Below are positions 1-44,957 of a stretch of DNA of 64,000 nt, one piece after another (the stretch's first letter is position 1; each line of letters starts with the position of its first letter). The DNA is from Chaetoderma sp. LZ-2023a (Eukaryota; Mollusca; Caudofoveata; Chaetodermatida; Chaetodermatidae): positions 62,001 to 126,000 of the forward strand of contig JAVVLW010001576.1 of the NCBI GenBank assembly GCA_034401795.1. The letters run 5' to 3'. The translations under genes and the position numbers were made by a program. Under the pieces are notes generated by a model. That model worked only from the letters and a program-made list of their open reading frames with translations, did not search any database and was not told where the DNA came from.

Positions 1-530
1 TCTCTGCTGCTGTGATGCCACCACCTAGCGTCATACAGACCTGTGGACATAAACAGAAAGAGAAATTAGCCTTAGGTAGCACCGAGTTGACATAAACCAA
101 CTAACCAAGGCGCTTATCACGGTAAATGCGAGTCCCGGAAACACAATACACCGGGCAAAAAACTCGCTAATTTTACTAGAAGTCACCTGATTCAAAGGTC
201 CTAGGTCCCCCTTTGGCGAAGTGATCCTTCCTGCCATCCTAATCAGTGACTATCACTCCAAAATAACACAACCAAGTTATGAAAACAGTTTAAGAGCAAG
301 GAAAAGCTATTGCACAAAAAAACATGTGTGATCCCTCTGCCAATAATCTAGCAAAGAGGAAGTGCTAGTCTGCGCATGCGCGGTGGTGGGGCTGGCATCC
401 GCCAGACTACGCTCTGACTCCCTGCCCAGTAGGGGCACCTAACTGTTTTTAATCTGAGTGTTTATTGAGTGAAAGCCAATATTTAGCAATATCAAAAGTA
501 TTAGGGAGGTAAGTATACTCTTGAAGTGAA
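1..530 (-). mobile_element. DIRS family 1 copy G, 5' terminal part only
   Basis: The sequence is nearly identical to 43268-43797, the 5' end of DIRS copy C. It holds the inverted terminal repeat (about 339-530, ending TTGAAGTGAAA), the ATG leader exon (187-237) and a leader splice-acceptor-like site near position 40. The element reads on the minus strand, so its body lies to the left of the window. Its end is about 10 bp from the splice donor of a host exon (541-669). This is a different copy from C because its flank differs. Confidence 0.85.
187..237 (-). CDS. DIRS Gag leader exon of copy G
   Basis: An ATG at 237 opens 17 codons (MAGRITSPKGDLGPLNQ) that end AATCAG followed by GTGACT, a good splice donor. 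The same small exon with the same end phase is present in copies A, C, B and D. It is inferred to join in phase 0 to the zinc-ribbon Gag exon, which for this copy lies outside the window. Splicing is inferred, not shown. Confidence 0.55.
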
Positions 531-12182: not shown

Positions 12183-12404
12183 AATAAACGAAATCTAGGA
12201 TTTCTTTTTTCACGAGAGAGTTGATACTTACCTCCCTAATACTTTTGATATTGCTAAATATTGGCTTTCACTCAATAAACACTCAGATTTAAAACAGTTA
12301 GGTGCCCCTACTGGGCAGGGAGTCAGAGCGTAGTCCGGCGGATGCCAGCCCCACCACCGCGCATGCGCAGACTAGCACTTCCTCTGACTAGATTATTGGC
12401 TGAC
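12183..12404 (-). repeat. 3' inverted terminal repeat of DIRS copy A
   Basis: Starts with a 15-nt palindrome GAAATCTAGGATTTC, then ATACTTACCTCCC. From there to about 12404 it is the inverted complement of 19039-19215. Confidence 0.9.
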
Positions 12405-12469
12405 ACACATGCAACTATTAAGAGCCTGAAGACCGAGCCTCTGTGGGGTGGAGAGGCCGGGTCCGTATC

Positions 12470-12570
12470 TAGGGAGGTAAGTATCAACTCTCTCGTGAAA
12501 AAAGAAATCCTAGATTTCGTTTATTTCACTTCAAGAGTATACTTACCTCCCTAATACTTTTGATATTGCC
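12470..12570. repeat. Internal complementary region (ICR) of DIRS copy A
   Basis: Contains the complement of the 3' terminus (AGGGAGGTAAGTATCAAC to GATTTCGTTTA) fused to the complement of the 5' terminus (TTTCACTTC to TACTTACCTCCCTAATAC). This is the arrangement known for DIRS-1, where the ICR is thought to template joining of the ends into a circle. Confidence 0.88.
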
Positions 12571-13099
12571 AGAATTCGAAAGTGAATCTGGCGGGAGGGA
12601 GGCGAGGTCAAAAGACCAGCTCATCCCTATACGCTTTTCTGCGTTTAAGGCACTAAAACTTCTGAAACTGTAAGAAAAAACAGTCAGGATTTGACTAACC
12701 ATCGGATAACACCACCGATGTATGAGAGATGACCGAATGTCATATGCGCTCCCCCCCCTCCTTCCTGGGAGGAAGAGTCGACTGACCTCAATGTCCTATA
12801 CGCTCTCTACGTACAAGTGCCATGTACTACAGGACAGAGACGAAAAAGCTCCATTTTCGTAACTCTCAACAATGAACCACACAAATACACAAACCATCAC
12901 CATATTAATAACGGGTAATCGTGACAAAACAATCAACAACGGACAACACATGAACAAGACTGACCTTGTTGACAATGGCTGCTGACATCATCTTCCCATC
13001 GGTAAAGACTGATGCAGGCCCAAAAATGTGGGTGTTTCCATAAATTAATTGTGATATATATAAGTAATGAGGAAATCACCTCAAAAAATATAAACCGAT
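12571..13099 (-). other. 3' untranslated region of DIRS copy A
   Basis: Non-coding stretch between the recombinase stop and the ICR, with a C-rich run near 12750. It is nearly identical to 37128-37664 in copy C. Confidence 0.7.
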
Positions 13100-14113
13100 T
13101 TATTTTTTCAAAACCGACAAGGCGAGAGGATTAGAGGTGTCACGGAGATAATGGTCTGTAAAACTTGACTCACAGTGCCACTGAGCCACCGACATAATAT
13201 CATCCACAGGGACCCCATTAAATAGGGCCGTGGATGTCACTACGCCGCGGACACTGTGAGCCTTGGCCACGTCAACCTGTTTCCCGGTGGCGGATTTATG
13301 GCAAAACTGAATGCATTCCACAATCCACCTGGAAATGGTGTCCTTAGAAGCCCTCCCATGGGGTTCAATATATGACAACCATAACGCTGACTGGTCGGTG
13401 CGCCATGCCGCCGTACGTTGTTTGTACCGGCGCAGCGCCCGGACGGGACACCATGCTTTAGAATTAGGATCATATCTAGTTAAAGCAGGCAAAATAATAG
13501 GTTGACCTGGATATTTCAACGACTGATTTTTAGCCAAGAAATTAATCCTAGGTAGCAGCTTAAGGCCTTCCCCTGAAACCACAAAACGGTCATCCTCGGC
13601 TGATAAGGCATGAATCTCACTCCTACGCCTAGCCGAGGCCGCAGCAATTAAAAACACAGTCTTCAGTGTTAATAGTTTCATAGAAATGGAACTAAGTGGT
13701 TCAAAAGGCTTATCACCTAGTACTTGAAGCACTAGCGATAAACTCCAAGACGGAATCACAGGAGGATTCCTTGGTCTTAGATTGCCCATGCCTTTAATTA
13801 ATACATTCAATGTATTTACTTCATCACTTCCCCTCTTAGCCAAGCAAGGAATAACAGACATTAATGCTGACTTATAACCAGCAATAGAGTTAGGCTTGAG
13901 GCTATAGGCATCATAGAGGTGACAGAGGAAATCAGCTACTACTTGAATAGATGAATCCATTGGATCAATACATCTTTTTGAGCACCATTCTGCAAATCTG
14001 TTGATTTTATAATTATATGCTCTGGAGGTTGACCCCCTCCTGGCTTTGGCCATAAACATGGCTGCTTGCTCAGAAAAGCCCTCCTTAATTCTAGATTCCT
14101 TGACAACATCCAC
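13100..14113 (-). CDS. DIRS tyrosine recombinase, copy A
   Basis: The frame ends at 13100 and stays open upstream to 16036, but only the last 340 or so codons look like protein; the rest overlaps the RT frame. An N-terminal SAM-like domain (GFSEQAAMFMAKARRG, YNYKINRFAEWC) precedes the catalytic domain with ASARRRSEIHAL (Arg I), AHSVRG (HxxR), QWHCESS and a Tyr in FTDHYLRD. The enzyme is expected to integrate a circular DNA intermediate without target duplication, which fits the A-in-B junctions. No ATG lies at the expected start (GTG at 14113). The frame is -1 relative to RT and the same as Gag, so frameshifting or a spliced message is likely. Confidence 0.88.
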   Translation of the reverse strand: MDVVKESRIKEGFSEQAAMFMAKARRGSTSRAYNYKINRFAEWCSKRCIDPMDSSIQVVADFLCHLYDAYSLKPNSIAGYKSALMSVIPCLAKRGSDEVNTLNVLIKGMGNLRPRNPPVIPSWSLSLVLQVLGDKPFEPLSSISMKLLTLKTVFLIAAASARRRSEIHALSAEDDRFVVSGEGLKLLPRINFLAKNQSLKYPGQPIILPALTRYDPNSKAWCPVRALRRYKQRTAAWRTDQSALWLSYIEPHGRASKDTISRWIVECIQFCHKSATGKQVDVAKAHSVRGVVTSTALFNGVPVDDIMSVAQWHCESSFTDHYLRDTSNPLALSVLKK

Positions 14114-16125
14114 GCAGTCAATCTGAACATTGACGGATTGTTGTGAAGGGCCTTGCCCTGGAAGATAATATCTTCCATCAGAGGCAGAGGAACCGGATTG
14201 CAGACCAGAAGGTCCAGCAGATCCGTATACCATGATCGGCTTGGCCAATCCGGGGCGATCAGAAGCACTTGGCATTCCTCTTGTCTGATTTTCTGAAGAA
14301 TTCTTGGAATCAGGATTGCTGGAGGGAATGCGTATGCATACATTCTCCCCCAGCTGATAGCTAACGCATCTGTTGCGAAAGCGCTTGGATCCGGAATCGG
14401 AGAGACGTACGTCGTCATCTTCGCATTCTTCTTTGTTGCGAACAAATCGATGTTGGGTTTCCCCCAATGGTCGAACAGACGATCCGCCACACATTGATTT
14501 AGTTGCCATTCCGTGGGTAAAACACTCATCCTTCGGCTCAATGAGTCTGCTAGCAGGTTTAACCTTCCCGGAATATGAACTGCTTTCAAGGTAATCTGGT
14601 GATCCAGACACCAACAAAGCAGTTTCCATGTCATCATACAGAGACTGGGCGACTTCGTTCCGCCCTGGCGGTTTATGTAAGTCACAACTGTTGAGTTGTC
14701 TGAACGAATAAGAACAATCTTGCCCTGAACTTTCTGTAAGAAATGTTCCAGGCCCAGGACTACTGCTCTTAGCTCCAGTAGATTTATATGTTCCTGTGAC
14801 TGTTCCAGATTCCAAAGCCCTGATATCGTGGAATCTTCCAGGCAAGCTCCCCAGCCCTCCATCGATGCATCTGTATACACAGTCACCTGAGGGTGGGGAG
14901 GGGTTAGCAAAACCCCCGGTAAGAGATTCTCTGTATTCAACCACCATTGCAGGTGGTGAATCAGAGGCGCCAACACTGACACACTCGAGTCCAGCGAACC
15001 TGTACTCTGGGTCCATTGTGTCATGAGAAACAACTGGATCGGCCGCCTGCGTAAGGCGGCCTGAGGAATGACTGGTTCCAACGAAACCATCAACCCCAGC
15101 ATTCTCAAGTAAACCCGTGCCAGGACATGACGACTGTCGCACACTGACTGAATCAACGAGATGAGTATTTGAACTCTCTCCTGAGTAGGATAAACATATC
15201 CTGTCTCCAGATCGAAGAACATCCCCAGGTAAACAAACTTCTGGGATGGAGTCAGCTCTGATTTTGGGAAATTGATCATCCAGCCCAAGTCTGTGAGAAT
15301 TTTCAAAACAATCTCCAGATTGGCGGACAAACTTTCCCGGGTGTGCGCTTTCAACAGCCAGTCGTCTATGTACGTGTGGACTGCTATGCTTCTCCTGCGG
15401 AGGTATGCTGTGATCGCAAGAACCACACGGGTGAAAACCCGAGGAGCCGTGGAAATTCCGAAGGGCAACACCCTGAATTCCCACTGTCTGCCCTGGAATG
15501 CAAATCTCAGGAAGCGACAGAAACTCCTGTGGATGGGGATGTGGAAATAAGCGTCCTTCAAATCTATCGACGCCGTCCACATCCCCCTCTCCAACCCCGC
15601 CAACACCGAGCGCACCGTTTCCATCTTGAAACTGGGCGTCTCGATGAACTTGTTCAACGGCTTGAGGTTGAGAATCGGTCTCCACCCACCGGTGCGTTTT
15701 GTTACCAAGAACAGGGTTGAATAGAAGCCCGGACACCTTTGTGCCGGCTGAATAGCTCCTTTTTGTACGAGGGAATTTATCTCCTCCTCGATACACAACC
15801 TTTGATCTGGATCTCTCGGAATGGGAGTCCAGACTGGCACCAGAGACAGTCGCGACGGCGGGCCTGTCATCCACTCTGGATGATACCCCACGGAAAGCCA
15901 TCGCAAGACTAAACGGTCCTGAGTTAACCGTTCCCACTCTTGCATGTGGTCGGCTAGCCGGCCTCCCACCGGTCCACCTAGGGACCGCGGTGGACACAAG
16001 GCATGCAAGAGCGGCACTGTCTCCGTCGCCATACACACCGGCGTGGTCCTTACCGCGGTAAGCGCCCTGTCAGGAACGATAACCACGCCCAGATCCTCGC
16101 GCGACCCGCCCCGCCCCGCGCGCAC
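13939..16125 (-). CDS. DIRS reverse transcriptase/RNase H frame, copy A
   Basis: 728 codons without an ATG at the 5' end (the frame opens at a GTG) and overlapping the Gag end by 56 nt, so expression by +1 frameshift or a fused message is inferred. RT motifs: GGWRPILNLKPLNKFI, SIDLKDAYFHIPI, LPFGIS, and HTYIDDWLLKA carrying the catalytic Asp pair. RNase H: VYTDASMEGWGA, LLELRAV, LIRSDNSTVV. Then HIPGRLNLLADSLSR and a region with IDLFATKKN and AYAFPPAILIP in the position where DIRS-1 has a methyltransferase-like domain; the usual NPPY-type motif is not evident. The last 90 or so codons overlap the recombinase N-terminus. No internal stops. Confidence 0.9.
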   Translation of the reverse strand: MRAGRGGSREDLGVVIVPDRALTAVRTTPVCMATETVPLLHALCPPRSLGGPVGGRLADHMQEWERLTQDRLVLRWLSVGYHPEWMTGPPSRLSLVPVWTPIPRDPDQRLCIEEEINSLVQKGAIQPAQRCPGFYSTLFLVTKRTGGWRPILNLKPLNKFIETPSFKMETVRSVLAGLERGMWTASIDLKDAYFHIPIHRSFCRFLRFAFQGRQWEFRVLPFGISTAPRVFTRVVLAITAYLRRRSIAVHTYIDDWLLKAHTRESLSANLEIVLKILTDLGWMINFPKSELTPSQKFVYLGMFFDLETGYVYPTQERVQILISLIQSVCDSRHVLARVYLRMLGLMVSLEPVIPQAALRRRPIQLFLMTQWTQSTGSLDSSVSVLAPLIHHLQWWLNTENLLPGVLLTPPHPQVTVYTDASMEGWGACLEDSTISGLWNLEQSQEHINLLELRAVVLGLEHFLQKVQGKIVLIRSDNSTVVTYINRQGGTKSPSLCMMTWKLLCWCLDHQITLKAVHIPGRLNLLADSLSRRMSVLPTEWQLNQCVADRLFDHWGKPNIDLFATKKNAKMTTYVSPIPDPSAFATDALAISWGRMYAYAFPPAILIPRILQKIRQEECQVLLIAPDWPSRSWYTDLLDLLVCNPVPLPLMEDIIFQGKALHNNPSMFRLTAWMLSRNLELRRAFLSKQPCLWPKPGGGQPPEHIIIKSTDLQNGAQKDVLIQWIHLFK

Positions 16126-18133
16126 CTCGGTGCACGGGCGGCTGCCTGGCTGACGGCGGCTGAGGAGCCTGCGCCCCCCTTACTGCTGGCCGAATCGCAC
16201 GCGGCCGAGGCCGGCGCTGCGACGGCGGCTGGCCTCTGACTTGGCCAACACCACCTCGAGCCTGCAGGGGACGATACGCAGGGGCCGCGGCGCGAACGTT
16301 AGCACGACGCAGTACCTCAAACTGTTCGCGCAGCGCCCTCTGGTTATTCACCAGGGTGACCGTCTCCTGGAGGTGGCGACATCCCTCACCTCCAAAAAGA
16401 CCAGGACCCGTCATCGGCGTACGGAGTAGCCTATTATACAGGTCCTGAGACGGGCACAGATTGTCCAGGGCAAATGTGCGTCTTGCCCTGACACTCCTGG
16501 TCACCGCCCGCGTCATACAGTCCAGCGCCAGGTTAATACCATCCTGGATGGTTCGCTGGACCGCGAGCGGGCCTGGCTGGCGCGATGCGGATGCCGTTAC
16601 TACCCCCTGTAACAGCTGGGAGACGTGGGACAGAGCGGCCATCGAAGCCCTCCCACTCTCCTCCGCATCACGCAACGCGGTATCCGCCGAACGCAACGCG
16701 TTCGCGCACAAGACCCCCGCGTCAGAACGGGAGCCTGGCCGCGTATCCTCACCCAAAGCCGCGCGGTCATCCACGCTGGGCTTGGGTACCACACCGTACC
16801 GCTGGTAGTCCAGGGGCACGATGCGACAACGCCTGGCCACCTCGCGAGGGGCCTTCGCGAGACGTCCACTCGTGTTAATGGACGCCTCCGCCGCCTTGAA
16901 CATGTCAACGACATGCTCCGCCAGCGGCAGAGAAGGCATAGCGTTAGCAGTTGGTTTCCCAGCTAACCACGGCGTGTGAACACGGTGGCTAGCCGACTGC
17001 TCCACGGGCAGATCAGGCCTAACGCTCACCAACCACTGGCAAGCGTCATACCAATCCTCCTCCGTGGCTAACTGCGAGCGCTCTACAAGACGGGGTCCTT
17101 CGTCTTCCTCCTGAGCGCAAGCAGTAGAGCTTGACGGCGGGTACGCTGATACACCTGGCAAGCCAGGGAAAACATGCGGGCCTGACAGCACCGGCATGAG
17201 AATATCACTGGTTTGACCAGGAGCAGGCACCGCGGTAGAGCGCGGGGTACATATAGCCCTACCACGGGCCCGGCCAGCACCAGCTACACTCTCGGCAAGC
17301 CGAGGTATGCGGTACCGCTGGCCATCAGCAGCGCCCTGGGCCACCACCTGAACCGCGGACCTTACTCCAGGGTGAGTAATACCGTGGAAAAAAGCGCCTG
17401 TATTCCCCGCGAGGGGAGCACAAACGTCTTCATCCATGTCCACGTCGTCAGACGGCGACCCTAGCAGGTAATCCTCATCACCCTGGTCAGAAAGATTAGA
17501 CCCCGGGTCAGCAAAGAGAGCTAACCCGGGCTGACCAGGAACGGTGCCATAGGAGGTACTGGCCACCGCGGCGTGCGGATACCCCTGGACTGATAAGCAG
17601 CCAGCGGGTTCCAGCGACAACCGTCCACGGTCCCCTATCGGCGCGGCAATAAGCCTGCTGCCAGGGCCGTGGAACGCCCCCTCTAATGGGGCCACCTCTG
17701 AATCGTCGGACAACGGAAGCGGACTAAGGAAAATCGATCCAGAGGCGGGGATTACCTGCTCCGAAGCCGATGATGAGGACAATAAAGGATCCGGTCCAGG
17801 AAGCATGCCACGAAGCAACCCTGGAACCAAATCTTTTATTGTCCTCTTCATCTCTCCCAACATCTCGGTCCGGAAGGTCTCCATATCCACCGCGGACGAG
17901 ACCTTCCCCTTACCCTTCCTACTTACAACCTCTCGTTTCCGCTTCTTCTTCCTCTCCTCCACTACCACCTTGTCCGTCGCCTGTAAGCAGCACAAGAATT
18001 CGGACATTAACACGCCCCCCCAGTGCTTACATATGTCACAATTAATCAATGGACCACAAGGGCTACATCGATAACACAGATGCGGCCAGAACTTTACATG
18101 TACAAAACGTCCACAGGACGCGCAACCCGGTCC
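16070..18133 (-). CDS. DIRS Gag main exon, copy A
   Basis: 688 codons, read from an acceptor-like site (CCCTGTTTCAG before GGACCGGG) at 18133. The first coding residues form a seven-cysteine zinc-ribbon-like pattern, C-x2-C-x12-C-x2-C-x2-C-x5-C-x2-C, kept with identical spacing in copies C and D. A basic Lys/Arg stretch (EERKKKRKREVVSRKGKG), a long acidic/Pro middle and an Arg/Gly/Pro-rich tail (RGARGAGRVARGSGRGYRS) follow. The first in-frame ATG is at 18007, inside the exon but after the cysteines. I favour the leader exon at 18896-18946 as the true start because phase and splice motifs agree. Function as nucleic acid binding Gag is inferred from position and composition. Confidence 0.75.
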   Translation of the reverse strand, partial: GPGCASCGRFVHVKFWPHLCYRCSPCGPLINCDICKHWGGVLMSEFLCCLQATDKVVVEERKKKRKREVVSRKGKGKVSSAVDMETFRTEMLGEMKRTIKDLVPGLLRGMLPGPDPLLSSSSASEQVIPASGSIFLSPLPLSDDSEVAPLEGAFHGPGSRLIAAPIGDRGRLSLEPAGCLSVQGYPHAAVASTSYGTVPGQPGLALFADPGSNLSDQGDEDYLLGSPSDDVDMDEDVCAPLAGNTGAFFHGITHPGVRSAVQVVAQGAADGQRYRIPRLAESVAGAGRARGRAICTPRSTAVPAPGQTSDILMPVLSGPHVFPGLPGVSAYPPSSSTACAQEEDEGPRLVERSQLATEEDWYDACQWLVSVRPDLPVEQSASHRVHTPWLAGKPTANAMPSLPLAEHVVDMFKAAEASINTSGRLAKAPREVARRCRIVPLDYQRYGVVPKPSVDDRAALGEDTRPGSRSDAGVLCANALRSADTALRDAEESGRASMAALSHVSQLLQGVVTASASRQPGPLAVQRTIQDGINLALDCMTRAVTRSVRARRTFALDNLCPSQDLYNRLLRTPMTGPGLFGGEGCRHLQETVTLVNNQRALREQFEVLRRANVRAAAPAYRPLQARGGVGQVRGQPPSQRRPRPRAIRPAVRGAQAPQPPSARQPPVHRGARGAGRVARGSGRGYRS

Positions 18134-18895
18134 CTGAAACAGGGCAAAGGACAAGGAGTATGAGCAACTAGTTAAGCTTAGAAACTCAATCCAACTCAAG
18201 GAGAAGGAAAACGATCATAAAGATCAATATACATCAAAAACCAGCATAGCGCTTGAATTGCTAATAAATACATAGCCAGCTGATTATGACGTCATTAATC
18301 CCGTGACAGGAAAAATTCGATCCCAACAAAACATCCAAGTGCAAAGACGAATTGTATGCTGAATGGATAAGTTGACTACACAACCATCAGATACATATAG
18401 ATAACTCTTGACTGGCAAAAATGTTAATTATCTCCCTTTGATTGTTTACAATAATTAACATCACCACATTATCAATAACTAGATACCTGACACTTTGTAT
18501 AGACAAACCATCCAACGTGACGAACCGGAAACTCCACCATCTGCACGCCTCTTAACTCTCTCCACCTCATGGGGAAGGAATTGGATCAAGAGGGCAAAGT
18601 GAGAAGACCTTTATACCAGGCCTCCAACTCACTGGACATAATTTTTCATTTGGTTAGATAACCTAACAGAGTTAGTAGGAAATGGAACCATGGTGGAGAG
18701 AATACTAATTCTCTGGTACTGTGACGTCACAACCTAGCGTCATACAGACCTGTGGACAGAAACAGAAAGAGAAATTAGTCCTAGGTAGCACCGAGTTGAC
18801 CTAAACCAACTAACTAAGGCGCTTATCACGGTAAACGCGAGTCCCGGAAACACAACACACCGGGAAGAAAACTCGCTAATTTTACTAGAAGTCAC

Positions 18896-18946
18896 CTGAT
18901 TTAAAGGTCCAACGTCCTCCGGTGGCGAAGTGTATCCTCCCGCCAT
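18896..18946 (-). CDS. DIRS Gag leader exon, copy A
   Basis: ATG at 18946, 17 codons (MAGGYTSPPEDVGPLNQ), donor AATCAG before GTGACT. It joins phase 0 to 18133 after removal of 762 nt. An alternative acceptor-like site (CTTTCTGTTTCTGTCCACAG) leads to 18749 and a frame that stops after 14 codons. Equivalent exons exist in copies G, C, B and D. Confidence 0.6.
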
Positions 18947-19038
18947 CCAAATCAGGTCTTATCACTTCCAAAATCACACCAATAAAAACGTTAATGAGCA
19001 AGAAAAGCTTATGACTGAAAAACATGTGTGTTCTCTTT

Positions 19039-19232
19039 GCCAATAATCTAGCAAAGAGGAAGTGCTAGTCTGCGCATGCGCGGTGGTGGGGCTGGCATCC
19101 GCCGGACTACACTCTGACTCCCTGCCCAGTAGGGGCACCTAACTGTTTTAAATCTGAGTGTTTATTGAGTGAAAGCCAATATTTAGCAATATCAAAAGTA
19201 TTAGGGAGGTAAGTATACTCTTGAAGTGAAAT
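19039..19232 (-). repeat. 5' inverted terminal repeat of DIRS copy A
   Basis: Runs from GCCAATAATCTAG to TTGAAGTGAAAT, the inverted complement of the left repeat. Contains AGGGAGGTAAGTATACTC 13 bp before the crossover. Confidence 0.9.
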
Positions 19233-20150: not shown

Positions 20151-21927
20151 TTAAGTAATGCAAAAGCGGCACTGTCTCTGGTTCAAGTAGCACTGGAGTG
20201 GCTCCTGTGGTAACCAACCCATCACGCACGGTTACCATGACCAGATCCCTGCACACCTCGGCCAGGGCCACGCACACCTCTCTGCGCAGGCTGCTGCTTG
20301 ACGGCTGCGCCGGAGGAGCCTTTGCCTCCACTCCCACCACCACGGAACAAATTGCTCCCGTAGCGCCTTCTGATTATTCACCAGAGTGAGCCTCTTGGAG
20401 GTGCTTACATCCCTCCCCTCCAAAGAGATCAGGACCCAACATAGGCGTACACAGCAACCTATTGTAGAGATCCTGTGAAGTGATCCTGTCTAGCGTGAAC
20501 GTGCGCCTTGCCCTAACACTCCTAGTGACAGCCGGTGTCATGCAATCGAGAGCCAGGTTTATCCCATCCTGGATGGCTCTCTGGACTGTGACAGGGCTCG
20601 CTTGATGCGACACAGAAGCAGTAACCACCCCCTGTAGCATGTTAGAGACATGAAAGACTGTAGAAATTGCAGCTCTCCTCTGTCACATAATGCGGTATTC
20701 GCACTGCGCAGCACGCCTGTGCATAGTGCTCCCGTGTCAGCACAGGAGTCTGGCCGCATGTCCTCGCCTAGTGCAGCATGGTCATCCACACCAGGCTTAG
20801 CCACCTCGTGGGGGTGGGGTGGGGGTGTGCGGGGGGGGGGGGGGCTTCGCCAGGAGTCTCCATTCAGCTTGATTGACGCCTCAGCCGCTGTGAACATATC
20901 AGTGACATGCTCTGCTAATGGCACAGATGGCTTTCCCACCAACCACGGGCGCTGGTTAGCCGATGGTTCCACATTGATTTCTAGTCTAACGTTTACCATC
21001 CATTCACACACCAGCCCTCATCAGTGGCCACCTGCGAGTGATCAACCAGGCGCAGGCCTTTGTCGTCCTCAACAGCACTCGCAAGCGTAACGGTGGCTGG
21101 AGCAGTGGATGCACCTGGCAAAAACATGCAGGCCCGTGAGAGCTGGCAGGGTGTCAGCCATGGCTATACCAAGAGCCTAAGCCATGGTTCGGTGGGGGTT
21201 ATAAAATCCAACACCATGGTCCGGGGCTACCGTAGCGCATCCATTGGCATGCCATGGCATGTGGGATGGGCAGGCATTGGCTCCAACCCGGGCTACCATC
21301 TCAGCCGTGAAAGCTACTCATGTGTGAGCAACACCACGGACAACATCCGTGCTCGCCGTGAAGGGCCGGATGTTCGATTCCATGGCCATGGCTCCATCAG
21401 GAAACCGACAACAGATAGTCCTCTTCTTCCTGGCCAGAAAGATTAGGCTCTGGGTCAGCAAAGAAAGCTAACCCAGACTGGCCAGGAAAAGTATCGTAAG
21501 AGGGTACGGTACCATGAGTCTGATTGGAAAACGACTATCATAGAACTCAGACTCAGAGGCGGGGGCAGACGAAGAATGCAACGAATTACCTGCAAAGCAA
21601 CTCTGGTACATTTTTGTACAGGTCCTTAATCGTCTTCTTCATCGTCCACTTAACCTAACACAGGCCTCATGTCCTTGGACATGGTTGCCTTCCTCTTACA
21701 CTTTCCACCACTTACATCCTCGCATTCATTCTTGGGATGCTTCTCCTCGTCACTCGCCCTATCCTTCGCCTGCACTTTAACAAATTCAGAGAATAAGTCG
21801 TCACTCACCATTTACAAACATCACATTTAATGATGGGACCACAAGTACTGCATCTAGTATAGATATGGGGAGCAAACTTGGGATTGAGAAATTGCCCATA
21901 GGAGCATACTCCACAACCACTAGTCTT
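20151..21927 (-). pseudogene. Degenerate Gag of copy B
   Basis: Pieces such as GPDLFGGEGCKHLQE, DGINLALDCMT and SVRARRTFTLD match the Gag of A in several frames. The zinc-ribbon segment begins at 21927 after CTTTTCAG and keeps six of seven cysteines (one is Tyr). A G-run near 20830 and an odd palindromic GCCATGG-rich stretch at 21160-21400 interrupt it. Confidence 0.75.
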
Positions 21928-22695
21928 CTGAAAAGTTATAATATATGAAGATAATGAGTTTTTTAGTCATGGGCTAAAAATTACATAACACGGAGAAACA
22001 GTATATAAATTAATTCTTAATAATAAAGTTGCTAAAGATAAAAACAACCAGCTGATACATAATGAATTGTTGATAGTAAACAAAGGGCTGATAATAATGT
22101 CATCTCTTAATAATCAAGAAAGATAATCAGTACACGATGTAGACGAATTGTATTCAACACACAAGAGCATAATCAATGGTGATGAACAAAGCGATAACCA
22201 TATGCCAACCAACAGAGAACCAGAAGAAAGATTTTGGCAGCAGATTTTAACAATATTTTCAAATAGTTTAGAATGCCATAGCTTCATAATTCTAGAGTAA
22301 CTGCATCTTTAGCACAGGCATACTACCATATCCATCGCTCTTGAGTAATCCACCATTTCATATGCCTCTCCACCATTAATAATAAAGGGACCATGGGGAA
22401 GAGAGATAAGTTACAACTCATACGGCGAGCTCTCGACTCTCTAGGCATAAACATTCCTAACAGGGGAGGGGTGAAAGGTGGGGAGGGGTGAAAGGTGGAG
22501 AGAATTTCGTCACAAATCATTTCTATATCCATTCCATGTACCTGTGGACACAAAAACAAAGTGATTAGAAATTCAAGGCGCCAATATATAATTTTATCAG
22601 TTTACAAGGCACCAAAAACGTCTAAAACGAATACCGGAAACTCATAACACTGCGAAAGACCAGCGAAATTTAGATAAAATAATAATTAAAGACAC

Positions 22696-22728
22696 CTGAT
22701 TGCTTTGTCCCTGCACTCCATCTGGCAT
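22696..22728 (-). CDS. DIRS Gag leader exon, copy B
   Basis: ATG at 22728, 11 codons (MPDGVQGQSNQ), donor AATCAG before GTGTCT. Sequence differs from A but ATG, phase and the NQ end are kept. Confidence 0.5.
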
Positions 22729-29625: not shown

Positions 29626-29967
29626 TGTGCAGGAAGTTGAAACACCTGTGCCCGGCAACATGCATAAGGTATCAGATCTTTCAGTCCTGTGCATCTCACT
29701 CACTAGCTCAACCTTGAAGGCCTTGAGCTCACCCTTCCCAGGGGCCTTCTTCTTACCCTCCTTCTTTGCCTTCTTGCCCTCCTCAACCATCAGCTTAACC
29801 TGTAAAGCAAAGAATTCAGAGGTTAGATCCCCCCTCCCCCCCCCCCCCCCCCCCCGCCCCTCTTTACAAATGACACATTTTCTAGACAGCTTACAAACTG
29901 TACAAAGATGGCAAGGGTGGGGGAAGAATCTAGCCTTCATGGGCTTGAAGCATGACGGACATGACTT
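29626..29967 (-). pseudogene. Gag remnant of DIRS D with zinc-ribbon exon
   Basis: Begins at an acceptor-like CCTTCCCTTTTCAG. SCPSCFKPMKARFFPHPC and CHLCTVCKLSRKCVIC keep the seven-cysteine spacing of copy A exactly. A G-run and a Lys-rich stretch follow, then the frame drifts; most of Gag is deleted before the RT. Confidence 0.75.
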
Positions 29968-30902
29968 CTGAAAGGGAAGGCATACGAAGACAATGAGTAT
30001 TATAGTTTGCAAAACCTTGTTATTTGACTATTAGTACAAAACAAGAACAAACTCGAGAGAACCCACCCACTTATTACAGACAACCCTGATGGGACAGCTG
30101 ACTTCTCTTGTTAATAATAACAAATCACAACCATGATCTCAAATTAAGAATGAGAAAAAATTATTGACTATCTAGATATCTCTCCACATTCATAATAAAG
30201 GGTGATAAAAACATCAAAAATATTTCTCTAAACTATAGATTATGACATCAAGGAAAGAGTAAAAACTCTGGTTGATTATGACATCAAACCTCAATGCAAC
30301 AGCTCCTTCAAGGAGAGGGGACATCAGAAATGAATGCAAGAAATATCTAGTGACTAGACATTCATTACTCCCGAATAATATAATATTAAATTATATATAT
30401 TCGAGAACCCTAGCACATACAAGAGAGAATACAGTGCAATAACAAAATGGCAGCAGAAATTTGTGAATATTTTCAAATAATTATGTGCCATAACTAATAA
30501 ACTCCCTTAGCCTGAGCACAGGCAAAACCATCCTCTTGTGAAGGAGAACACGTCCATCCATCTGCCGAGACTCTTCTTTCTGAAGAACTGATGAGGGGGA
30601 TGGGACAAAAGGAAGGAGATATTTCTTTTATTTATTTACTATATCTCCAACCCTTAGACATATCACAATGATAAGTAAAAAAAGAGACGTGAACAACCTT
30701 TGAGGGAAGAACAGGAACCCTTACACATCCATAAGTTGAACCTGTGAACACAAAGCACAAGGGATTAATAGCCCTAGGCGCTGGGAGAAATTTAACAAGG
30801 CTTCCCAGCGCCTGAAATTGCGGTAACGTCAAAACGGCCGTGAACGAAAACCGGTAACATATAAAAGTTACAAGTCTAAATTAATAAATGGAACAATATC
30901 AC

Positions 30903-30950
30903 CGTAACAGATGATGAGGAAGCTTCCTCTGCAGACTTTGAATCAGCCAT
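30903..30950 (-). CDS. DIRS Gag leader exon, copy D
   Basis: ATG at 30950, 16 codons (MADSKSAEEASSSSVT), donor GTTACG before GTGATA, phase 0. The sequence differs from A and C but position, ATG and phase match. Confidence 0.45.
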
Positions 30951-36740: not shown

Positions 36741-36965
36741 AATAAACGAAATCTAGGATTTCTTTTTTCACGAGAGAGTTGATACTTACCTCCCTAATAC
36801 TTTTGATATTGCTAAATATTGGCTTTCACTCAATAAACACTCAGATTAAAACAGTTAGGTGCCCCTACTGGGCAGGGAGTCAGAGCGTAGTCTGGCGGAT
36901 GCCAGCCCCACCACCGCGCATGCGCAGACTAGCACTTCCTCTGACTAGATTATTGGCTGACACAC
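36741..36965 (-). repeat. 3' inverted terminal repeat of DIRS C
   Basis: Begins AAACGAAATCTAGGATTTC, virtually identical to 12183-12404. Confidence 0.9.
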
Positions 36966-37025
36966 ATGCAACTATTAAGAGCCTGAAGACCGAGCCTCTG
37001 TGGGGTGGAGAGGCCGGGTCCGTAT

Positions 37026-37127
37026 CTAGGGAGGTAAGTATCAACTCTCTCGTGAAAAAAGAAATCCTAGATTTCGTTTATTTCACTTCAAGAGTATACT
37101 TACCTCCCTAATACTTTTGATATTGCC
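37026..37127. repeat. ICR of DIRS C
   Basis: Fused complements of both element ends, identical in layout to 12470-12570. Confidence 0.88.
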
Positions 37128-37664
37128 AGAATTCGAAAGTGAATCTGGCGGGAGGGAGGCGAGGTCAAAAGACCAGCTCATCCCTATACGCTTTTCTGCG
37201 TTTAAGGCACTTAAACTTCTGAAACTGTACGAAAAACAGTCAGGATTTGACTAACCATCGGATAACACCACCGATGTATGAGAGATGACCGAATGTCATA
37301 TGCGCTCCCCCCCCCCCCCCCTCCTTCCTGGGAGGAAGAGTCGACTGACCTCAATGTCCTATACGCTCTCTACGTACAAGTGCCATGTACTACAGGACAG
37401 AGACGAAAAAGCTCCATTTTCGTAAACTCTCAACAATGAACCACACAAATACACAAACCATCACCATATTAATAACGGGTAACGTGACAATACAATCAAC
37501 AACGGACAACACATGAACAAGACTGACCTTGTTGAAATGGCTGCTGACATCATCTTCCCATTGGTGAAGACTGATGCAGGCCCAAAAAAGTGGGTGTTTC
37601 CATAAATTAATTGTGAAATATATAAGCAATGAGGAAAAAACCTCCTCAAAAAATATAAACCGAG
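37128..37664 (-). other. 3' untranslated region of DIRS C
   Basis: Equivalent to 12571-13099, with a longer C-run near 37307. Confidence 0.7.
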
Positions 37665-38678
37665 TTATTTTTTCAAAATCGACAAGGCGAGAGGATTAGA
37701 GATGTCACGGAGATAATGGTCTGTAAAACTTGACTCACAGTGCCACTGAGCCACCGACATAATATCATCCACAGGGACCCCATTAAATAGGGCAGTGGAT
37801 GTCACTACGCCGCGGACACTGTGAGCCTTGGCCACGTCAACCTGCTTCCCGGTGGTGGATTTATGGCAAAACTGAATGCATTCTACAATCCACCTGGAAA
37901 TGGTGTCCTTAGAAGCCCTGCCATGGGGTTCAATATATGACAACCATAACGCTGACTGATCGGTGCGCCACTCCGCCATACGTTGCTTGTACCGGCAAAG
38001 CGCCTGGACAGGACACCATGCTTTAGAATTAGGATCATATCTAGTTAAAGCAGGCAAAATAATAGGTTGACCTGGATATTTCAACGACTGATTTTTAGCC
38101 AAGAAATTAATCCTAGGTAGCAGCTTAAGGCCTTCCCCTGAAACCACAAAACGGTCATCCTCGGCTGATAAGGCATGAATTTCACTCCTACGCCTAGCCG
38201 AGGCCGCAGCAATTAAAAACACAGTCTTCAGTGTTAATAGTTTCATAGAAATGGAACTAAGTGGTTCAAAAGGCTTATCACCTAGTACTTGAAGCACTAG
38301 CGATAAACTCCAAGACGGAATCACCGGTGGATTCCTTGGTCTTAGATTGCCCATGCCTTTAACTAATACATTTAATGTATTTACTTCATCACTTCCCCTC
38401 TTAGCCAAGCAAGGAATAACAGACATTAATGCTGACTTATAACCAGCAATAGAGTTAGGCTTGAGGCTATAGGCATCATAGAGGTGACAGAGGAAATCAG
38501 CTACTACTTGAATAGATGAATCCATTGGATCAATACATCTTTTTGAGCACCATTCTGCAAATCTGTTGATTTTATAATTATATGCTCTGGAGGTTGACCC
38601 CCTCCTGGCTTTGGCCATAAACATGGCTGCTTGCTCAGAAAAGCCCTCCTTAATTCTAGATTCCTTGACAACATCCAC
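37665..38678 (-). CDS. DIRS tyrosine recombinase, copy C
   Basis: Same organisation as in copy A: GFSEQAAMFMAKARRG, YKINRFAEWC, ASARRRSEIHAL, AHSVRG, QWHCESS, FTDHYLRD. No internal stops; catalytic Arg, His, Arg, His and Tyr all present. The frame stays open to 40562 but overlaps RT above about 38678. It ends LALSILKK. Confidence 0.88.
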   Translation of the reverse strand: MDVVKESRIKEGFSEQAAMFMAKARRGSTSRAYNYKINRFAEWCSKRCIDPMDSSIQVVADFLCHLYDAYSLKPNSIAGYKSALMSVIPCLAKRGSDEVNTLNVLVKGMGNLRPRNPPVIPSWSLSLVLQVLGDKPFEPLSSISMKLLTLKTVFLIAAASARRRSEIHALSAEDDRFVVSGEGLKLLPRINFLAKNQSLKYPGQPIILPALTRYDPNSKAWCPVQALCRYKQRMAEWRTDQSALWLSYIEPHGRASKDTISRWIVECIQFCHKSTTGKQVDVAKAHSVRGVVTSTALFNGVPVDDIMSVAQWHCESSFTDHYLRDISNPLALSILKK

Positions 38679-40885
38679 GCAGTCAATCTGAACATTGACG
38701 GATTGTTGTGAAGGACCTTGCCCTGGAAGATAATATCGTCCATCAGAGGCAGAGGAACCGGATTGCAGACCAGAAGGTCCAGCAGATCCGTATACCATGA
38801 TCGGCTTGGCCAATCCGGGGCGATCAGAAGCACTTGGCATTCCTCTTGTCTGATTTTCTGAAGAATTTTTGGAATCAGGATTGCTGGAGGGAATGCGTAT
38901 GCATACATTCTCCCCCAGCTGATAGCTAACGCATCTGTTGCGAAAGCGCTTGGATCCGGAATCGGAGAGACGTACGTCGTCATCTTCGCATTCTTCTTCG
39001 TTGCGAACAAATCGATGTTGGGTTTCCCCCAATGGTCGAACAGACGATCCGCCACACATTGATTTAGTTGCCATTCCGTGGGTAAAACACTCATCCTTCG
39101 GCTCAATGAGTCTGCTAGCAGGTTTAACCTTCCCGGAATATGAACTGCTTTCAAGGTAATCTGGTGATCCAGACACCAACAAAGCAGTCTCCATGTCATC
39201 ATACAGAGACTGGGCGACTTCGTTCCGCCCTGGCGGTTTATGTAAGTCACAACTGTTGAGTTGTCTGAACGAATAAGAACAATCTTGCCCTGAACTTTCT
39301 GTAAGAAATGTTCCAGGCCCAGGACTACTGCTCTTAGCTCCAGTAGATTTATATGTTCCTTTGACTGTTCCAGATTCCAAAGCCCTGATATCGTGGACTC
39401 TTCCAGGCAAGCCCCCCAGCCCTCCATCGATGCATCTGTATACACAGTCACCTGAGGGTGGGGAGGGGTCAGCATAACCCCCACCAAGAGATTCTCTGTG
39501 AGCAACCACCATTGCAGGTGGTGAATCAGAGGCGCCAACACTGACACGTTCGAGTCCAGCGAACCTGTACTCTGGGTCCATTGTGTCATGAGAAACAACT
39601 GGATCGGCCGCCTGCGTAAGGCGGCCTGAGGAATGACTGGTTCCAAAGAAACCATCAACCCCAGCATTCTCAAGTAAACCCGTGCCAGGACATGACGACT
39701 GTCGCACACTGACTGAATTAACGAGATGAGTTTCTGCACTCTCTCTTGAGTAGGATAAACATATCCCGTCTCCAGATCGAAGAACATTCCCAGGTAAACA
39801 AACCTCTGGGATGGAGTCAGCTCTGATTTCGGAAAATTTATCATCCAGCCCAAATCCGAGAGAGTTTTCAAAACAATCACCAGATTGGCCGATAAAGCTT
39901 CCTTGTCGTGTGCCTTTAACAACCAGTCGTCTATGTACGTGTGGACTGCTATGCTTCTCCTGCGGAGGTATGCTGTGATCGCAAGAACCACACGGGTGAA
40001 AACCCGAGGAGCCATGGAAATTCCGAAGGGCAACACCCTGAATTCCCACTGTCTGCCCTGGAATGCAAATCTCAGGAAGCGACAGAAACTCCTGTGGATG
40101 GGGATGTGGAAATAAGCGTCCTTCAAATCTATCGACGCCGTCCACATCCCCCTCTCCAACCCCGCCAACACCGAGCGCACCGTTTCCATCTTGAAACTGG
40201 GCGTCTCGATGAACTTGTTCAATGGCTTGAGGTTGAGAATCGGTCTCCACCCTCCGGTGCGTTTTGTTACTAAGAACAGGGTTGAATAGAAGCCCGGACA
40301 CCTTTGTGCCGGCTGAATAGCTCCCTTTTGTACGAGGGAATCTATCTCCTCCTCGATACACAACCTTTGCTCTGGATCTCTCGGAATGGGAGTCCAGACT
40401 GGCACTAGAGACAGTCGCGACGGCGGGCCTGTCATCCACTCTGGATGATACCCGACGGAAAGCCATCGCAAGACTAAACGGTCCTGAGTTAACCGTTCCC
40501 ACTCTTGCATGTGGTCGGCTAGCCGGCCTCCCACCGGTCCACCTAGGGACAGAGGTGGACACGAGGCATGCAAGAGCGGCACTGTCCCCGTCGCCATAAA
40601 CACCGGAGTGGTTCTTACCGCGGTAACCGTCCCGTCAGGACCGATAACCACGCCCAGATCCTCGCGCGCCCCGCCCCGCCCCGCGCGCACCTCGGTGCGC
40701 GGGCGGCTGCCTGGCTGACGGCGCCTGAGGAACCTGCGCCCCCCTCGCTGCTGGCCGAATCGCACGCGGCCGAGGCCGACGCTGCGACGGTGGCTGGCCT
40801 CTGACTTGGCCAGCACCACCTCGAGCCTGCAGGGGACGATACGCAGGGGGCGCGGCGCGAACGTTAGCACGACGCAGCACCTCAA
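38504..40885 (-). CDS. DIRS reverse transcriptase/RNase H frame, copy C
   Basis: 793 open codons. The extra 5' codons compared with A overlap the Gag end in another frame and are probably not translated as such. RT motifs SIDLKDAYFHIPI, LPFGIS and HTYIDDWLLKA, RNase H VYTDASMEGWGA and LIRSDNSTVV, then the degenerate methyltransferase-like stretch with AYAFPPAILIP. No ATG start in the expected place; frame relations to Gag (+1) and recombinase (-1) are as in copy A. Confidence 0.9.
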   Translation of the reverse strand: MRCCVVLTFAPRPLRIVPCRLEVVLAKSEASHRRSVGLGRVRFGQQRGGRRFLRRRQPGSRPRTEVRAGRGGAREDLGVVIGPDGTVTAVRTTPVFMATGTVPLLHASCPPLSLGGPVGGRLADHMQEWERLTQDRLVLRWLSVGYHPEWMTGPPSRLSLVPVWTPIPRDPEQRLCIEEEIDSLVQKGAIQPAQRCPGFYSTLFLVTKRTGGWRPILNLKPLNKFIETPSFKMETVRSVLAGLERGMWTASIDLKDAYFHIPIHRSFCRFLRFAFQGRQWEFRVLPFGISMAPRVFTRVVLAITAYLRRRSIAVHTYIDDWLLKAHDKEALSANLVIVLKTLSDLGWMINFPKSELTPSQRFVYLGMFFDLETGYVYPTQERVQKLISLIQSVCDSRHVLARVYLRMLGLMVSLEPVIPQAALRRRPIQLFLMTQWTQSTGSLDSNVSVLAPLIHHLQWWLLTENLLVGVMLTPPHPQVTVYTDASMEGWGACLEESTISGLWNLEQSKEHINLLELRAVVLGLEHFLQKVQGKIVLIRSDNSTVVTYINRQGGTKSPSLCMMTWRLLCWCLDHQITLKAVHIPGRLNLLADSLSRRMSVLPTEWQLNQCVADRLFDHWGKPNIDLFATKKNAKMTTYVSPIPDPSAFATDALAISWGRMYAYAFPPAILIPKILQKIRQEECQVLLIAPDWPSRSWYTDLLDLLVCNPVPLPLMDDIIFQGKVLHNNPSMFRLTAWMLSRNLELRRAFLSKQPCLWPKPGGGQPPEHIIIKSTDLQNGAQKDVLIQWIHLFK

Positions 40886-42694
40886 ACTGCTCGCGCAGCG
40901 CCCTCTGGTTATTCACCAGGGTGACCGTCTCCTGGAGGTGTCGACATCCCTCACCTCCAAAAAGACCAGGACCCGTCATAGGCGTCGCAGTAGCCTATTG
41001 TACAGGTCCTGAGACGGGCACAGATTGTCCAGGGCAAACGTGCGTCTTGCCCGGACACTCCTGGTCACCGCCCGAGTCATACAGTCCAGCGCCAGGTTAA
41101 TACCATCCTGGATGGCTCGCTGGACCGTGACCGGACTTGGCTGGCGCGACGCGGATGCCGTTACTACCCCCTGTAACAGCTGGGAGACGTGGGACAGAGC
41201 GGCAATCGAAGCCCTCCCACTCTCCTCCGCATCACGCAACGCGGTATTCGCCGAACGCAACGCGTTCGAGCACAAGACCCCCGTGTCAGAACGGGAGCCT
41301 GGCCGCGCATCCTCACCCAAAGCCGCGCGGTCATCCACGCTGGGCTTGGGTACCACACCGTACCGCTGGTAATCCAGGGGCACGATGCGACAACGCCTGG
41401 CCACCTCGCGAGGGGCCTTCGCGAGACGTCCACTCGACTTAATGGACGACTCCGCCGCCTCGAACATGTCAACGACATGCTCCGCCAGCGGCAGAGAAGG
41501 CATAGCGTTAGCAGTCGGTTTCCCAGCTAACCACGGCCTGTGGTCACGCTGGCTAGTCGACTGCTCCACGGGCAGATCAGGCCTAACGCTCACCAACCAC
41601 TGGCAAGCGTCAGACCAATCCTCCTCCGTGGCTAACTGCGAGCGCTCTACAAGACGGGGGCCTTCGTCTTCCTCCTGAGCGCAAGCAGCAGAGCTTGACG
41701 GCGGGTACGCTGATACACCTGGCAAGCCAGGGAAAACATGCGGGCCTGACAGCACCGGCATGACAATATCACTGGTTTGACCAGGAGCAGGCGCCGTGGC
41801 AGAGCGCGGGGCACATACCGCCCCACCACGGGCCCGGCCAGCACCAGCAACACCCTCGGCAAGCCGAGGTATGCGGTACCGCTGGCCATCAGCAGCGCCC
41901 TGGGCCACCACCTGAGCCGCGGACTCTACTCCAGGGTGAGTAAAACCGTGGAAGAAGCCGCCTGTATTCCCCGCGAGGGGTGCACAAACGTCTTCATCCA
42001 TGTCCACGTCGTCAGACGGCGACCCTAGCAGGTAATCTTCATCACCCTGGTCAGAAAGATTAGACCCCGGGTCAGCAAAGAGAGCTAACCCGGGCTGACC
42101 AGGAACGGTGCCATTGGAGGTACTGGCCACCGCGGCGTGCGGATACCCCTGGACTGATAAGCAGCCCGCGGGTTCCAGCGACAGCCGTCCACGGTCCCCT
42201 ATCGGCGCGGCAATAAGCCTGCTGCCAGGGTCGTGGAACGCCCCCTCTAATGGGGCCACCTCTGAATCGTCGAACAACGGAAGCGGTCTAAGGAAAACCG
42301 ATCCAGAGGCGGGGATTACCTGCTCCGAAGCCGATGATGAGGACAGTAAAGGATTTGGTCCAGGAAGCATGCCACGAAGCAACTCTGGAACCAAATCCTT
42401 TATTGTCCTCTTCATCTCTCCCAACATCTCGGTCCGGAAGGCCTCCATATCCACCGCGGACGAGGCCTTCCCCTTACCCTTCCTACTTACAACCTCTCGT
42501 TTCCGCTTCTTCTTCTTCTCCTCCTCTACCACCTTGTCCGTCGCCTGCAAGCACAAGAATTCGGACATTAACTCGCCCCCCCAGTGCTTACATATCTCAC
42601 AATTACCCGAGGGACCACAAGGGCTACATTGATAGCAAAGATGAGGCAAGAACTTATCATGCAGAAATCGTCCACAGGACGCGCAACCCGGTCC
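40635..42694 (-). pseudogene. DIRS Gag main exon, copy C, with one frameshift
   Basis: Opens at an acceptor-like CCCTGTTTCAG (42694) with the same zinc-ribbon cysteines as A (CASCGRF, CYQCSPCGPSGNCEIC). It runs to 40976, where a 1-nt deletion relative to copy A near 40985 gives a stop after YNRLLRRL. The tail (GPGLFGGEGCRHLQETV to RGSGRGYRS) continues in another frame. Otherwise intact, so the loss is recent. Confidence 0.82.
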
Positions 42695-43453
42695 CTGAAA
42701 CAGGGCAAAGGACGAGGAGTATGAGCAAACTAGTTAAGCTTAGACACTCAAACCAACTCAAAGAGAAGGAAAACGATCATAAAGATCAATATACATCAGA
42801 AACCAGCATTGCAACTTGAATTGCTGATAAATACATAGCCAGGCTGATTATGACGTCATTAATCCCGTGACAGGAAAAAATCGATCCCAACAAACATCCA
42901 AGTGCGAGGACGAATTGTATGCTGAATGGATACGTCGACTACACAACCATCAGATACACATAGATAACTCTTTTCTGGCAAAAATGTTAATTATCTCCCT
43001 TTGCTTACTATAATTAACATCACCACATTATCAATAACTAGATACCTGACACCTTGTATAGACAAACCATCCAACGTGACGAACTGGAGTACTCCACCAC
43101 CTGCACGCCTCTTAACTCTCTCCACCTCATGGGGAAGGAATTGGATCAAGAGGGCAAAGCGAGAAGACCTTTATACTAGGCCTCCAACTCACTGGACATA
43201 AATCATTTGGTTAGATAACCTAACAGTGTTAGTAGGAAATGGAACCATGGTGGAGAGAAAACTAACTCTCTGCTGCTGTGATGCCACCACCTAGCGTCAT
43301 ACAGACCTGTGGACATAAACAGAAAGAGAAATTAGCCTTAGGTAGCACCGAGTTGACATAAACCAACTAACCAAGGCGCTTATCACGGTAAACGCGAGTC
43401 CCGGAAACACAATACACCGGGAAAGAAAACTCGCTAATTTTACTAGAAGTCAC

Positions 43454-43504
43454 CTGATTCAAAGGTCCTAGGTCCCCCTTTGGCGAAGTGATCCTTCCTG
43501 CCAT
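43454..43504 (-). CDS. DIRS Gag leader exon, copy C
   Basis: ATG at 43504, 17 codons identical in protein to copy G (MAGRITSPKGDLGPLNQ), donor AATCAG before GTGACT, phase 0 to 42694. Confidence 0.6.
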
Positions 43505-43605
43505 CCTAATCAGTGACTATCACTCCAAAATAACACAACCAAGTTATGAAAACAGTTTAAGAGCAAGGAAAAGCTTTTGCACAAAAAAACATGTGTGATC
43601 TCTCT

Positions 43606-43797
43606 GCCAATAATCTAGCAAAGAGGAAGTGCTAGTCTGCGCATGCGCGGTGGTGGGGCTGGCATCCGCCAGACTACGCTCTGACTCCCTGCCCAGTAGG
43701 GGCACCTAACTGTTTTAATCTGAGTGTTTATTGAGTGAAAGCCAATATTTAGCAATATCAAAAGTATTAGGGAGGTAAGTATACTCTTGAAGTGAAA
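43606..43797 (-). repeat. 5' inverted terminal repeat of DIRS C
   Basis: GCCAATAATCTAG to TTGAAGTGAAA, inverted complement of the left repeat. Confidence 0.9.
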
Positions 43798-44957
43798 TGA
43801 GGAGTGAAAATAACCAATAGGGTCTTTATCGATTTATAAAATCTGACAATATACACATGTAACATGTACCAGAAAGTGTGTATGTTGCATTTGTTACATT
43901 GATAGTTGTGCGCTTATATTATCATCATGAATTGTTGACCAACAACACATTCTCTAACAATCATGCCTGACCTGGTACATCACTTAACAAGACTATCGTT
44001 AGCTACACAAATATGTGATTCTTTAATGTCTTTTATAACACAAGAAGTTAACTGAAAACATCTAAGCAATATTAACATTATGAGGTCTTTTCTCCGCAAG
44101 CCTAACCCTTTAATGGTCATACCAGCCAAAACCGGCATCGGTTATCATCCTGTGGAATGTCAATTTACAGCTCAAGAGATTACAATTTTTGAAAATTTAC
44201 CATTGGAGACTGGCTCGATAACTGTGCTAGTCATTCCAGGCATAAATTGTCAAAAATCTTATTCTCTTGGCTTGTAAATGTACATTCAGTAGGCAGATAT
44301 TAAAATTTTCTTGACCAAATTTGACCATTAAAGCGCTAAAACACAAATCACACTATAATACACTATTGCTTGTCATGCATAGTCTTATACAGACCAATAA
44401 ACCTATGGAGAACTCATTCTGAATGTATTAAAGACTGGAATATTGAAAATATGATGTCAATTAGCAATTTTATAAACACTACAAGCATATATAAGTGTAT
44501 ACACCTAGACAAATAGACCATTCTATGTTTGACAACCACATCAATAAATGCTTACATGAAAACAGATAATCGCATTACAATTTAATGTAAGACATAAACA
44601 AGGAAATACAGCCTTACACCGCTTTCAAAATAGACACTGGCTAGCATTTAAGAGAAGCAACATGAACAGAGGCAAGCTGACAGATCATCAATAAAAAGAT
44701 ACAATTCCATAAGAGTACACATTCAAACATGTAGTTCCAGTATATCAATTCCATGTCAACTCTACATGTCAAGTAAGCTGTGGAATATTTTAAAACTAAT
44801 TTGGCTGGAAATCAATTGTGGCTTAGATAGCAATAATAGATTACAGTCAGATTAGTTTAAAACATATTCGACAGAAAAGCTCTCAATTGCAATGAATTCA
44901 TTATATCTGGTCTGTAGGGTTAAAAGTTAATAACTAAAGGGGGAGAATGAAACTCAC
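43798..44957. other. Intron 6 segment right of DIRS C
   Basis: AT-rich with a P1 copy at 44777-44873. A 65-codon open frame at 44080-44277 has no recognisable homology. Confidence 0.6.
44777..44873. repeat. Palindromic repeat P1, diverged
   Basis: GCTGTGGAATATTTTAAAAC left arm; AGTTTAAAACATATTCGACAG-like right arm. Confidence 0.7.

Follow-up and report, generated by a model that had tools for sequence, protein, structure and literature searches.

A putative two-exon Gag in DIRS1-like retroelements of Chaetoderma sp. LZ-2023a

Results

The window, a stretch of 64,000 nucleotides from contig JAVVLW010001576.1, contains several DIRS1-like elements, all on the minus strand. Two are full length at about 7.05 kb: element A (12183..19232), whose ends are consistent with ATT, and element C (36741..43798), whose end was placed by analogy with A. 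Copy B, an older copy running from 23013 to about 10580, has its RT region interrupted by A; copy D, also old, runs from about 31231, and copy G (531-1) is cut by the window edge. Since A and C are 95.7% identical and the leaders of C and G (see below) are identical, the five copies appear to represent about three independent lineages. The ITR of A (12224-12385/19055-19216) spans 162 nt at 99% identity; across A and C, ITRs measure 161-162 nt, the lICR is identical to the left end over 47 nt, and the right ICR comprises 60 nt at 98-100%. At the one insertion examined, A lies in the B RT region as CCAGTC-ATT...ATT-CC, and the intact target, read in A's own RT, is CCAGTCATTCC. A is nested cleanly in the B RT gene at ATT, without target duplication (19230-19235 and 12178-12185).

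Five frames were scanned against Pfam. The RT/RNase H/Dam-like frame of A (13939..16125, open from 16179) matched RVT_1 (E 3.3e-22), RT_RNaseH under the curated cut-off (1.7e-4; the corresponding frame of a second family, family 2, was over it) and, weakly, the methyltransferase model Dam (E 0.0053, 16.9 bits vs a cut-off of 28.1). Of the two RT frames scanned, that of A alone gave the Dam match. The tyrosine recombinase domain (13100..14092 in A), aligned with C and family 2, is 66-67% identical between the two families, with HSVR/HEVR and the terminal Tyr region recognizable by eye, and the region gave Pfam SAM-like matches under cut-off in A. This combination of an RT/RNase H frame, a recombinase frame and a weak Dam-like match identified the element as DIRS1-like. 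It shares with described DIRS1-like elements (PMC3266345) the Gag, RT/RNase H and tyrosine recombinase frames, ITRs, two ICRs and ATT ends, and differs in a likely intron before the main Gag exon and in length, about 7.05 kb for A and C vs 3793-6283 bp; both exceed all 28 elements tabulated there, the longest being 6283 bp. When the RT alignment was used as query in one scan per contig collection, viral and genome contigs returned 141 and 62 pattern matches, respectively, with 0 confirmed relatives; statements on conservation rest on the copies in the window.

The RT frame of A overlaps the end of Gag by 110 nt (16070-16179) in a different frame, and its first ATG lies only at 16032, so that RT would need a frameshift, reinitiation or another route. 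A leader common to Gag and RT or recombinase was considered and set aside, as the best acceptor near RT (16261 in A; 40826 in C) is, in A, in the Gag frame and not in the RT frame.

The main Gag exon covers 16070..18133 in A (687 residues) and 40976..42694 in C (572 residues, with its own early stop). It opens with a Cys-rich segment, which contains seven cysteines in A (18011..18133), continues for 40 codons before a stop in B (21808..21927), and is recognizable by in-frame similarity in D (29854..29967). Directly before it stands a TTTCAG acceptor, with the first exon base at 18133 (A), 42694 (C), 21927 (B) and 29967 (D); each of these opens the Cys segment in phase 0 (4/4), exactly where the sequence-only reading had placed them. 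The G acceptor falls beyond the window edge, and acceptor counts cover A, C, B and D.

That reading had further proposed that Gag starts in a separate leader exon, and the coordinates and phase 0 of all five leaders were exact. In A (18896..18946), C (43454..43504) and G (187..237) an ATG opens 17 codons (51 nt) ending at the donor CAG/GTGACT, the G leader being identical to that of C. The B leader (22696..22728) has 11 codons (33 nt) and the donor CAG/GTGTCT, and the D leader (30903..30950) has 16 codons (48 nt) and the weak donor ACG/GTGATA; the distance from ATG to donor is a multiple of 3 in every case. The proposed introns measure 762 nt in A (18134..18895), 759 nt in C (42695..43453), 768 nt in B (21928..22695) and 935 nt in D (29968..30902).

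Splice sites were scored with approximate generic metazoan frequency matrices, which rank sites only and are not calibrated for this host. On this ranking the leader donor came second of 113 GT sites of the 5' region in A, second of 109 in C, fourth of 81 in B and fifth of 97 in D. No leader donor carries G at +5 (C, C and T in the three donor sequences), and scores were weak in B (1.6) and D (0.8). Read directly across the donor junction, A and B are identical at 12 of 13 bases (AATCAG/GTGnCTT). Leader sequences are barely alignable between lineages (z 0.1-2.5), and the D leader bears no clear likeness to the others. The start-codon context is mixed, and the leader ATG is preceded, counting from the ITR start, by 3 other ATGs in A, C and G, by 7 in B and by 6 in D. 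Because a comparable ATG-donor pair arose on shuffling (300 trials) at a rate of 13% for A and for C, 34% for B and 62% for D, the leader taken alone exceeds chance only modestly.

The sequence-only reading recognized a single acceptor and overlooked a second, inner one, here called AG1, which scores higher in 4/4 copies. In A, the stretch from the leader donor to AG1 (CACAG/GT) occupies 18750..18895, with the first exon base at 18749; the corresponding bases are 43306 (C), 22541 (B) and 30741 (D). AG1 is the highest-scoring acceptor of the 5' region in all four copies scanned, and in the whole elements AG1 and the Gag acceptor rank first and second among 455 (A) and 475 (C) AG sites. Its motif, TGTYCACAG/GT, is found in 5/5 copies, preceded by CTAAT (A, C, G and B) or ATTAAT (D). 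The donor-AG1 segment is conserved between lineages (z 3.9-6.9), and the remaining intron retains some similarity (z 2.2-8.1). With the leader joined to AG1, its frame reaches a stop after 14 codons in A and C, 6 codons in D and 72 codons in B, and leaves the window after 13 codons in G. These tails have no peptide common to the lineages; AG1 therefore cannot yield Gag. Since it is nonetheless the top acceptor in 4/4 copies, a splice choice is likely, in which AG1 would serve as a putative alternative, Gag-less splice competing with the Gag acceptor.

The prominence of AG1 lends itself to another reading, that Gag is spliced from a start exon elsewhere upstream, possibly a host exon that the strong acceptors capture, and that the leader is only a 5' untranslated exon or small upstream frame, as a rule joined to AG1. 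AG1 lies at a usual intron length from the leader donor (146-161 nt, alike in 5/5 copies), and the divergence of the leader and its far from small chance frequency fit this arrangement. Against it, in 4/4 copies tested no ATG-GT pair open in phase 0 between element start and acceptor, other than the leader itself, has a donor that equals or exceeds the leader's, and a captured host exon would not be passed on together with the element. We therefore regard a start exon elsewhere as unlikely, and the leader described here remains our candidate first exon.

The folding energy of the donor-AG1 segment was not unusual (z from -0.4 to -1.5) in A, C, G and B and reached z -2.8 in D. Directly before AG1, a stem of at least 6 pairs can be drawn in 5/5 copies, and two of its pairs change on both sides between lineages (by eye); such a stem also formed on shuffling (400 trials), at a rate of 39% for A, 41% for B and 25% for D, and the hairpin is kept as a suggestion. 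Recursive splicing through AG1 (AG/GT) is allowed by score in A, C, G and B (1.9-2.1) and not in D (-3.0). The A and C introns also contain ATGACGTCATAATCAG (18310-18280 in A), partly kept in B and D, which we take to resemble a CRE/ATF site and which may be regulatory.

The Gag acceptor ranked second of 86 AG sites of the 5' region in A, second of 96 in C, tenth of 68 in B, where its score is only 0.8, and fourth of 90 in D. Of the signals of a U2-type intron, GT and AG at the ends are present in all four copies, with scores from good (A and C) to weak (B and D). In-frame similarity of the 38-residue segments following the acceptor was 114 for A-B, 73 for A-D and 42 for B-D, compared with 6.5 to 24 for these pairs in the other two frames (22-24 for A-B); the values for C-B were 100 in frame vs 31 and 30.5 out of frame, and for C-D 79 vs 7.5 and 8.5. 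The 38 codons directly upstream of the acceptor scored at background (A-B 10.5, A-D -5, B-D 3). Residue shuffles reached the observed score in 0/2000 cases for A-B and A-D and in 2/2000 for B-D. The Cys segment is coding, with its onset at the acceptor, far beyond chance. Six of its cysteines are shared by all four copies, and the seventh is Tyr in B (by reading the alignment). A third site resembling an acceptor, at 17980 in A, 42544 in C and 29799 in D, would bypass the segment; the stretch skipped is also coding.

In all four copies an in-frame stop lies 42-84 nt before the acceptor with no ATG between. With the frame closed and no ATG upstream, translation of the Cys segment needs a start from elsewhere, for which splicing is the simplest route. 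One could instead suppose that no splicing takes place, that Gag starts either directly upstream of the Cys segment, at a non-AUG codon, or from an ATG further downstream, and that the acceptor motif is incidental: ahead of the acceptor the frame stays open over 13-27 codons, and an in-frame ATG occurs at codon index 42 in both A and C, in A as the first of the main exon. This fails to explain why protein similarity ends at the acceptor and does not extend into the open frame upstream, when the Cys segment itself is conserved as protein. A downstream start is likewise hard to reconcile with D, whose first ATG (index 9) falls inside the Cys segment, and with B, where the stop at codon index 40 comes before any ATG. 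Unspliced initiation therefore seems to us quite improbable. Two of the Gag frames are damaged, that of B by its stop at index 40 and that of C by its early stop. That the leaders of B and D arose by chance as mini-frames, with no more than the A/C/G leader being real, would suit their shuffle frequencies and the unlikeness of the D leader, and is rendered very improbable by the shared donor-AG1 spacing and the near-identical A-B donor junction.

No intron-less junction was found in the window, where the best match has 5-7 mismatches in 24. A Pfam scan of the Cys segment (4 pieces) gave one sub-threshold match, to PHF5 (E 0.054), in C only, and homology to PHF5 was not accepted on that basis. 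An AlphaFold2 model of the Cys region from a 4-row alignment (mean pLDDT 53.6, pTM 0.20) was not used.

Divergence between A and C was compared along the element. Synonymous divergence (dS) was 0.067 in the Gag body and 0.07 in the recombinase, 0.42 in the leader (4 changes) and 0.30 in the first 41 codons of the Cys exon (6.5 changes). The intron, at 4.1 and 5.4% whatever the gap settings, is close to the synonymous level and carries indels, and on these grounds behaves as neutral, non-coding DNA. The Cys segment differs at 16 of 123 positions independently of gap settings; the leader differs at 7/50 to 11/51 positions, and the 5' untranslated region shows 9-15 substitutions in 107-108 positions with 5-10 indels, both depending on those settings. 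Relative to a rate of 5%, the excess was significant for the Cys segment (P 0.00044) and the leader (P 0.012) and not for the 5' untranslated region (P 0.088).

In one alignment, divergent A-C tracts were 19017-18902 (37/116), 15357-15265 in RT (20/93) and 18107-18045 (14/63); the first of these, like a 26% divergence of the 5' untranslated region, is inflated by alignment gap settings. The tract in RT (20/93 vs about 4% elsewhere) suggests exchange with another subfamily, and the faster exon ends may have the same origin. Recombination with a spliced copy was considered and dropped as evidence, as the 5' tract shrank on realignment and one tract lies in RT.

A second DIRS family extends from 55038 to beyond 64000 as head-to-tail units with a spacing of 5312-5316, about 99% identical and with a single ITR between them. 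Its Gag and RT share one frame (60350-56871), and the head-to-tail units could be the trace of a circular or multimeric intermediate. The Gag frame opens at the ITR edge (60350) without a leader or Cys segment, and similarity to A Gag begins 336 residues into the A main exon. An intact family without the leader ATG or donor had been named beforehand as a case that would refute the spliced leader. Family 2 does lack the leader; given the head-to-tail arrangement of its units, separated by a single ITR, its 5' part may be missing, and it counts neither for nor against.

The strongest donor-like sites, GAG/GTAAGT, lie in the right ITR and ICR (A 12232 and 12547; C 36790 and 37104). Where copies are tandem or circular, these donors could allow splicing into the following unit.

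Discussion

Overall, we conclude that the N-terminus of Gag in these elements very probably comes from a spliced upstream exon of some kind. The coding signal begins at the acceptor, and a stop without an intervening ATG lies upstream in 4/4 copies, so that a spliced start is strongly implied. The sites, their phases, the coding onset and the absent start codon are present in the DNA itself and recur in three lineages; splicing as such is what we infer from them. To this extent the earlier proposal of a spliced Gag stands, and its choice of the leader as partner exon is plausible rather than proven. On balance, we consider it probable that this DIRS1-like element has a two-exon Gag with the leader described here as first exon.

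In the arrangement we favor, a tiny 5' exon would supply the ATG and the first 11-17 residues of Gag, and a zinc-finger-like segment rich in Cys would begin the main exon. Removal of an intron of about 760-935 nt by the host spliceosome would give the Gag mRNA. Unspliced RNA, on which Gag cannot be initiated, would serve as template for reverse transcription and perhaps also as the messenger for RT and recombinase, a division of labor that we infer from the same features. Weak donors and the competing AG1 may hold splicing back and so set the ratio of capsid protein to genome. A stronger version, in which capsid is made from spliced RNA only, AG1 and the Gag acceptor (AG2) together with the hairpin form a switch between capsid and replication, and the donor-AG1 segment marks genomic RNA, is doubtful; if true, that segment would resemble a packaging signal located behind a splice donor.

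The sequence-only reading had called a spliced Gag mRNA unusual for a retroelement whose RNA must also be kept unspliced. Such an RNA is not unique among retroelements. As described in PMC3735527, Drosophila copia and barley BARE1 produce Gag from a spliced RNA and keep unspliced RNA for replication. In Arabidopsis Ty1/Copia elements, such as EVADE, the shGAG RNA is a spliced, Gag-only transcript that is translated more than the full-length RNA, the latter being mostly nuclear (PMC8892269). The present case does look different, in that the start of Gag would be impossible on unspliced RNA. The copia/BARE1 intron removes pol or ends the frame after Gag, at or downstream of the gag end, and unspliced RNA also encodes Gag (PMC3735527), whereas here the intron would lie between the start codon and the main Gag exon. 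The Arabidopsis elements are LTR elements, and their intron is downstream of the Gag start and coupled to early polyadenylation (PMC8892269).

Penelope-like elements, as described in PMC3846280, offer a precedent for a retroelement that keeps a spliceosomal intron through retrotransposition. They belong to another RT class with a different integration enzyme, and an antisense template was proposed there for intron retention. Penelope-like elements usually combine the Penelope RT with a GIY-YIG endonuclease. The RT described here matches RVT_1 and is accompanied by RNase H and a recombinase frame, and the Pfam matches listed for the five scanned frames include no GIY-YIG.

A word search found neither "intron" nor "splic" in the main text of PMC3266345, PMC9210276, PMC2685390 and PMC3783388. 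The main text of PMC6681497 has no "intron" and one "splic", which refers to trypanosome trans-splicing, and that of PMC4157794 has no "intron" and two "splic", general in the passage of that paper available. No title on introns in DIRS elements, and no description of a spliced Gag RNA in such an element, was found in the literature searched, the scope of which ended short of subscription papers and Repbase.

If the two-exon reading is correct, a DIRS group would join copia, BARE and other Ty1/Copia elements in relying on host splicing to make Gag. The reading would also carry a warning for annotation, as a search demanding an uninterrupted ATG-to-stop Gag would miss the N-terminus. To our knowledge, how DIRS elements apportion Gag, RT and recombinase from one transcript has not been worked out. 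A start-codon exon before a retained intron would be a concrete, testable answer for one DIRS lineage.

The window has other residents. A BEL/Pao retrotransposon lies at 2367-9047 (Peptidase_A17, E 2.4e-44) and includes an in-frame 69-bp tandem repeat at 7593-8065. A Tc1/mariner-like transposase frame occupies 35001-35804 (DDE_3, E 1.6e-11); going by the title of a paper, Tc1-like elements with spliceosomal introns have reportedly been described in molluscs. Finally, a tandem array with a 44-bp unit in about 22 copies extends over 24006-24957.
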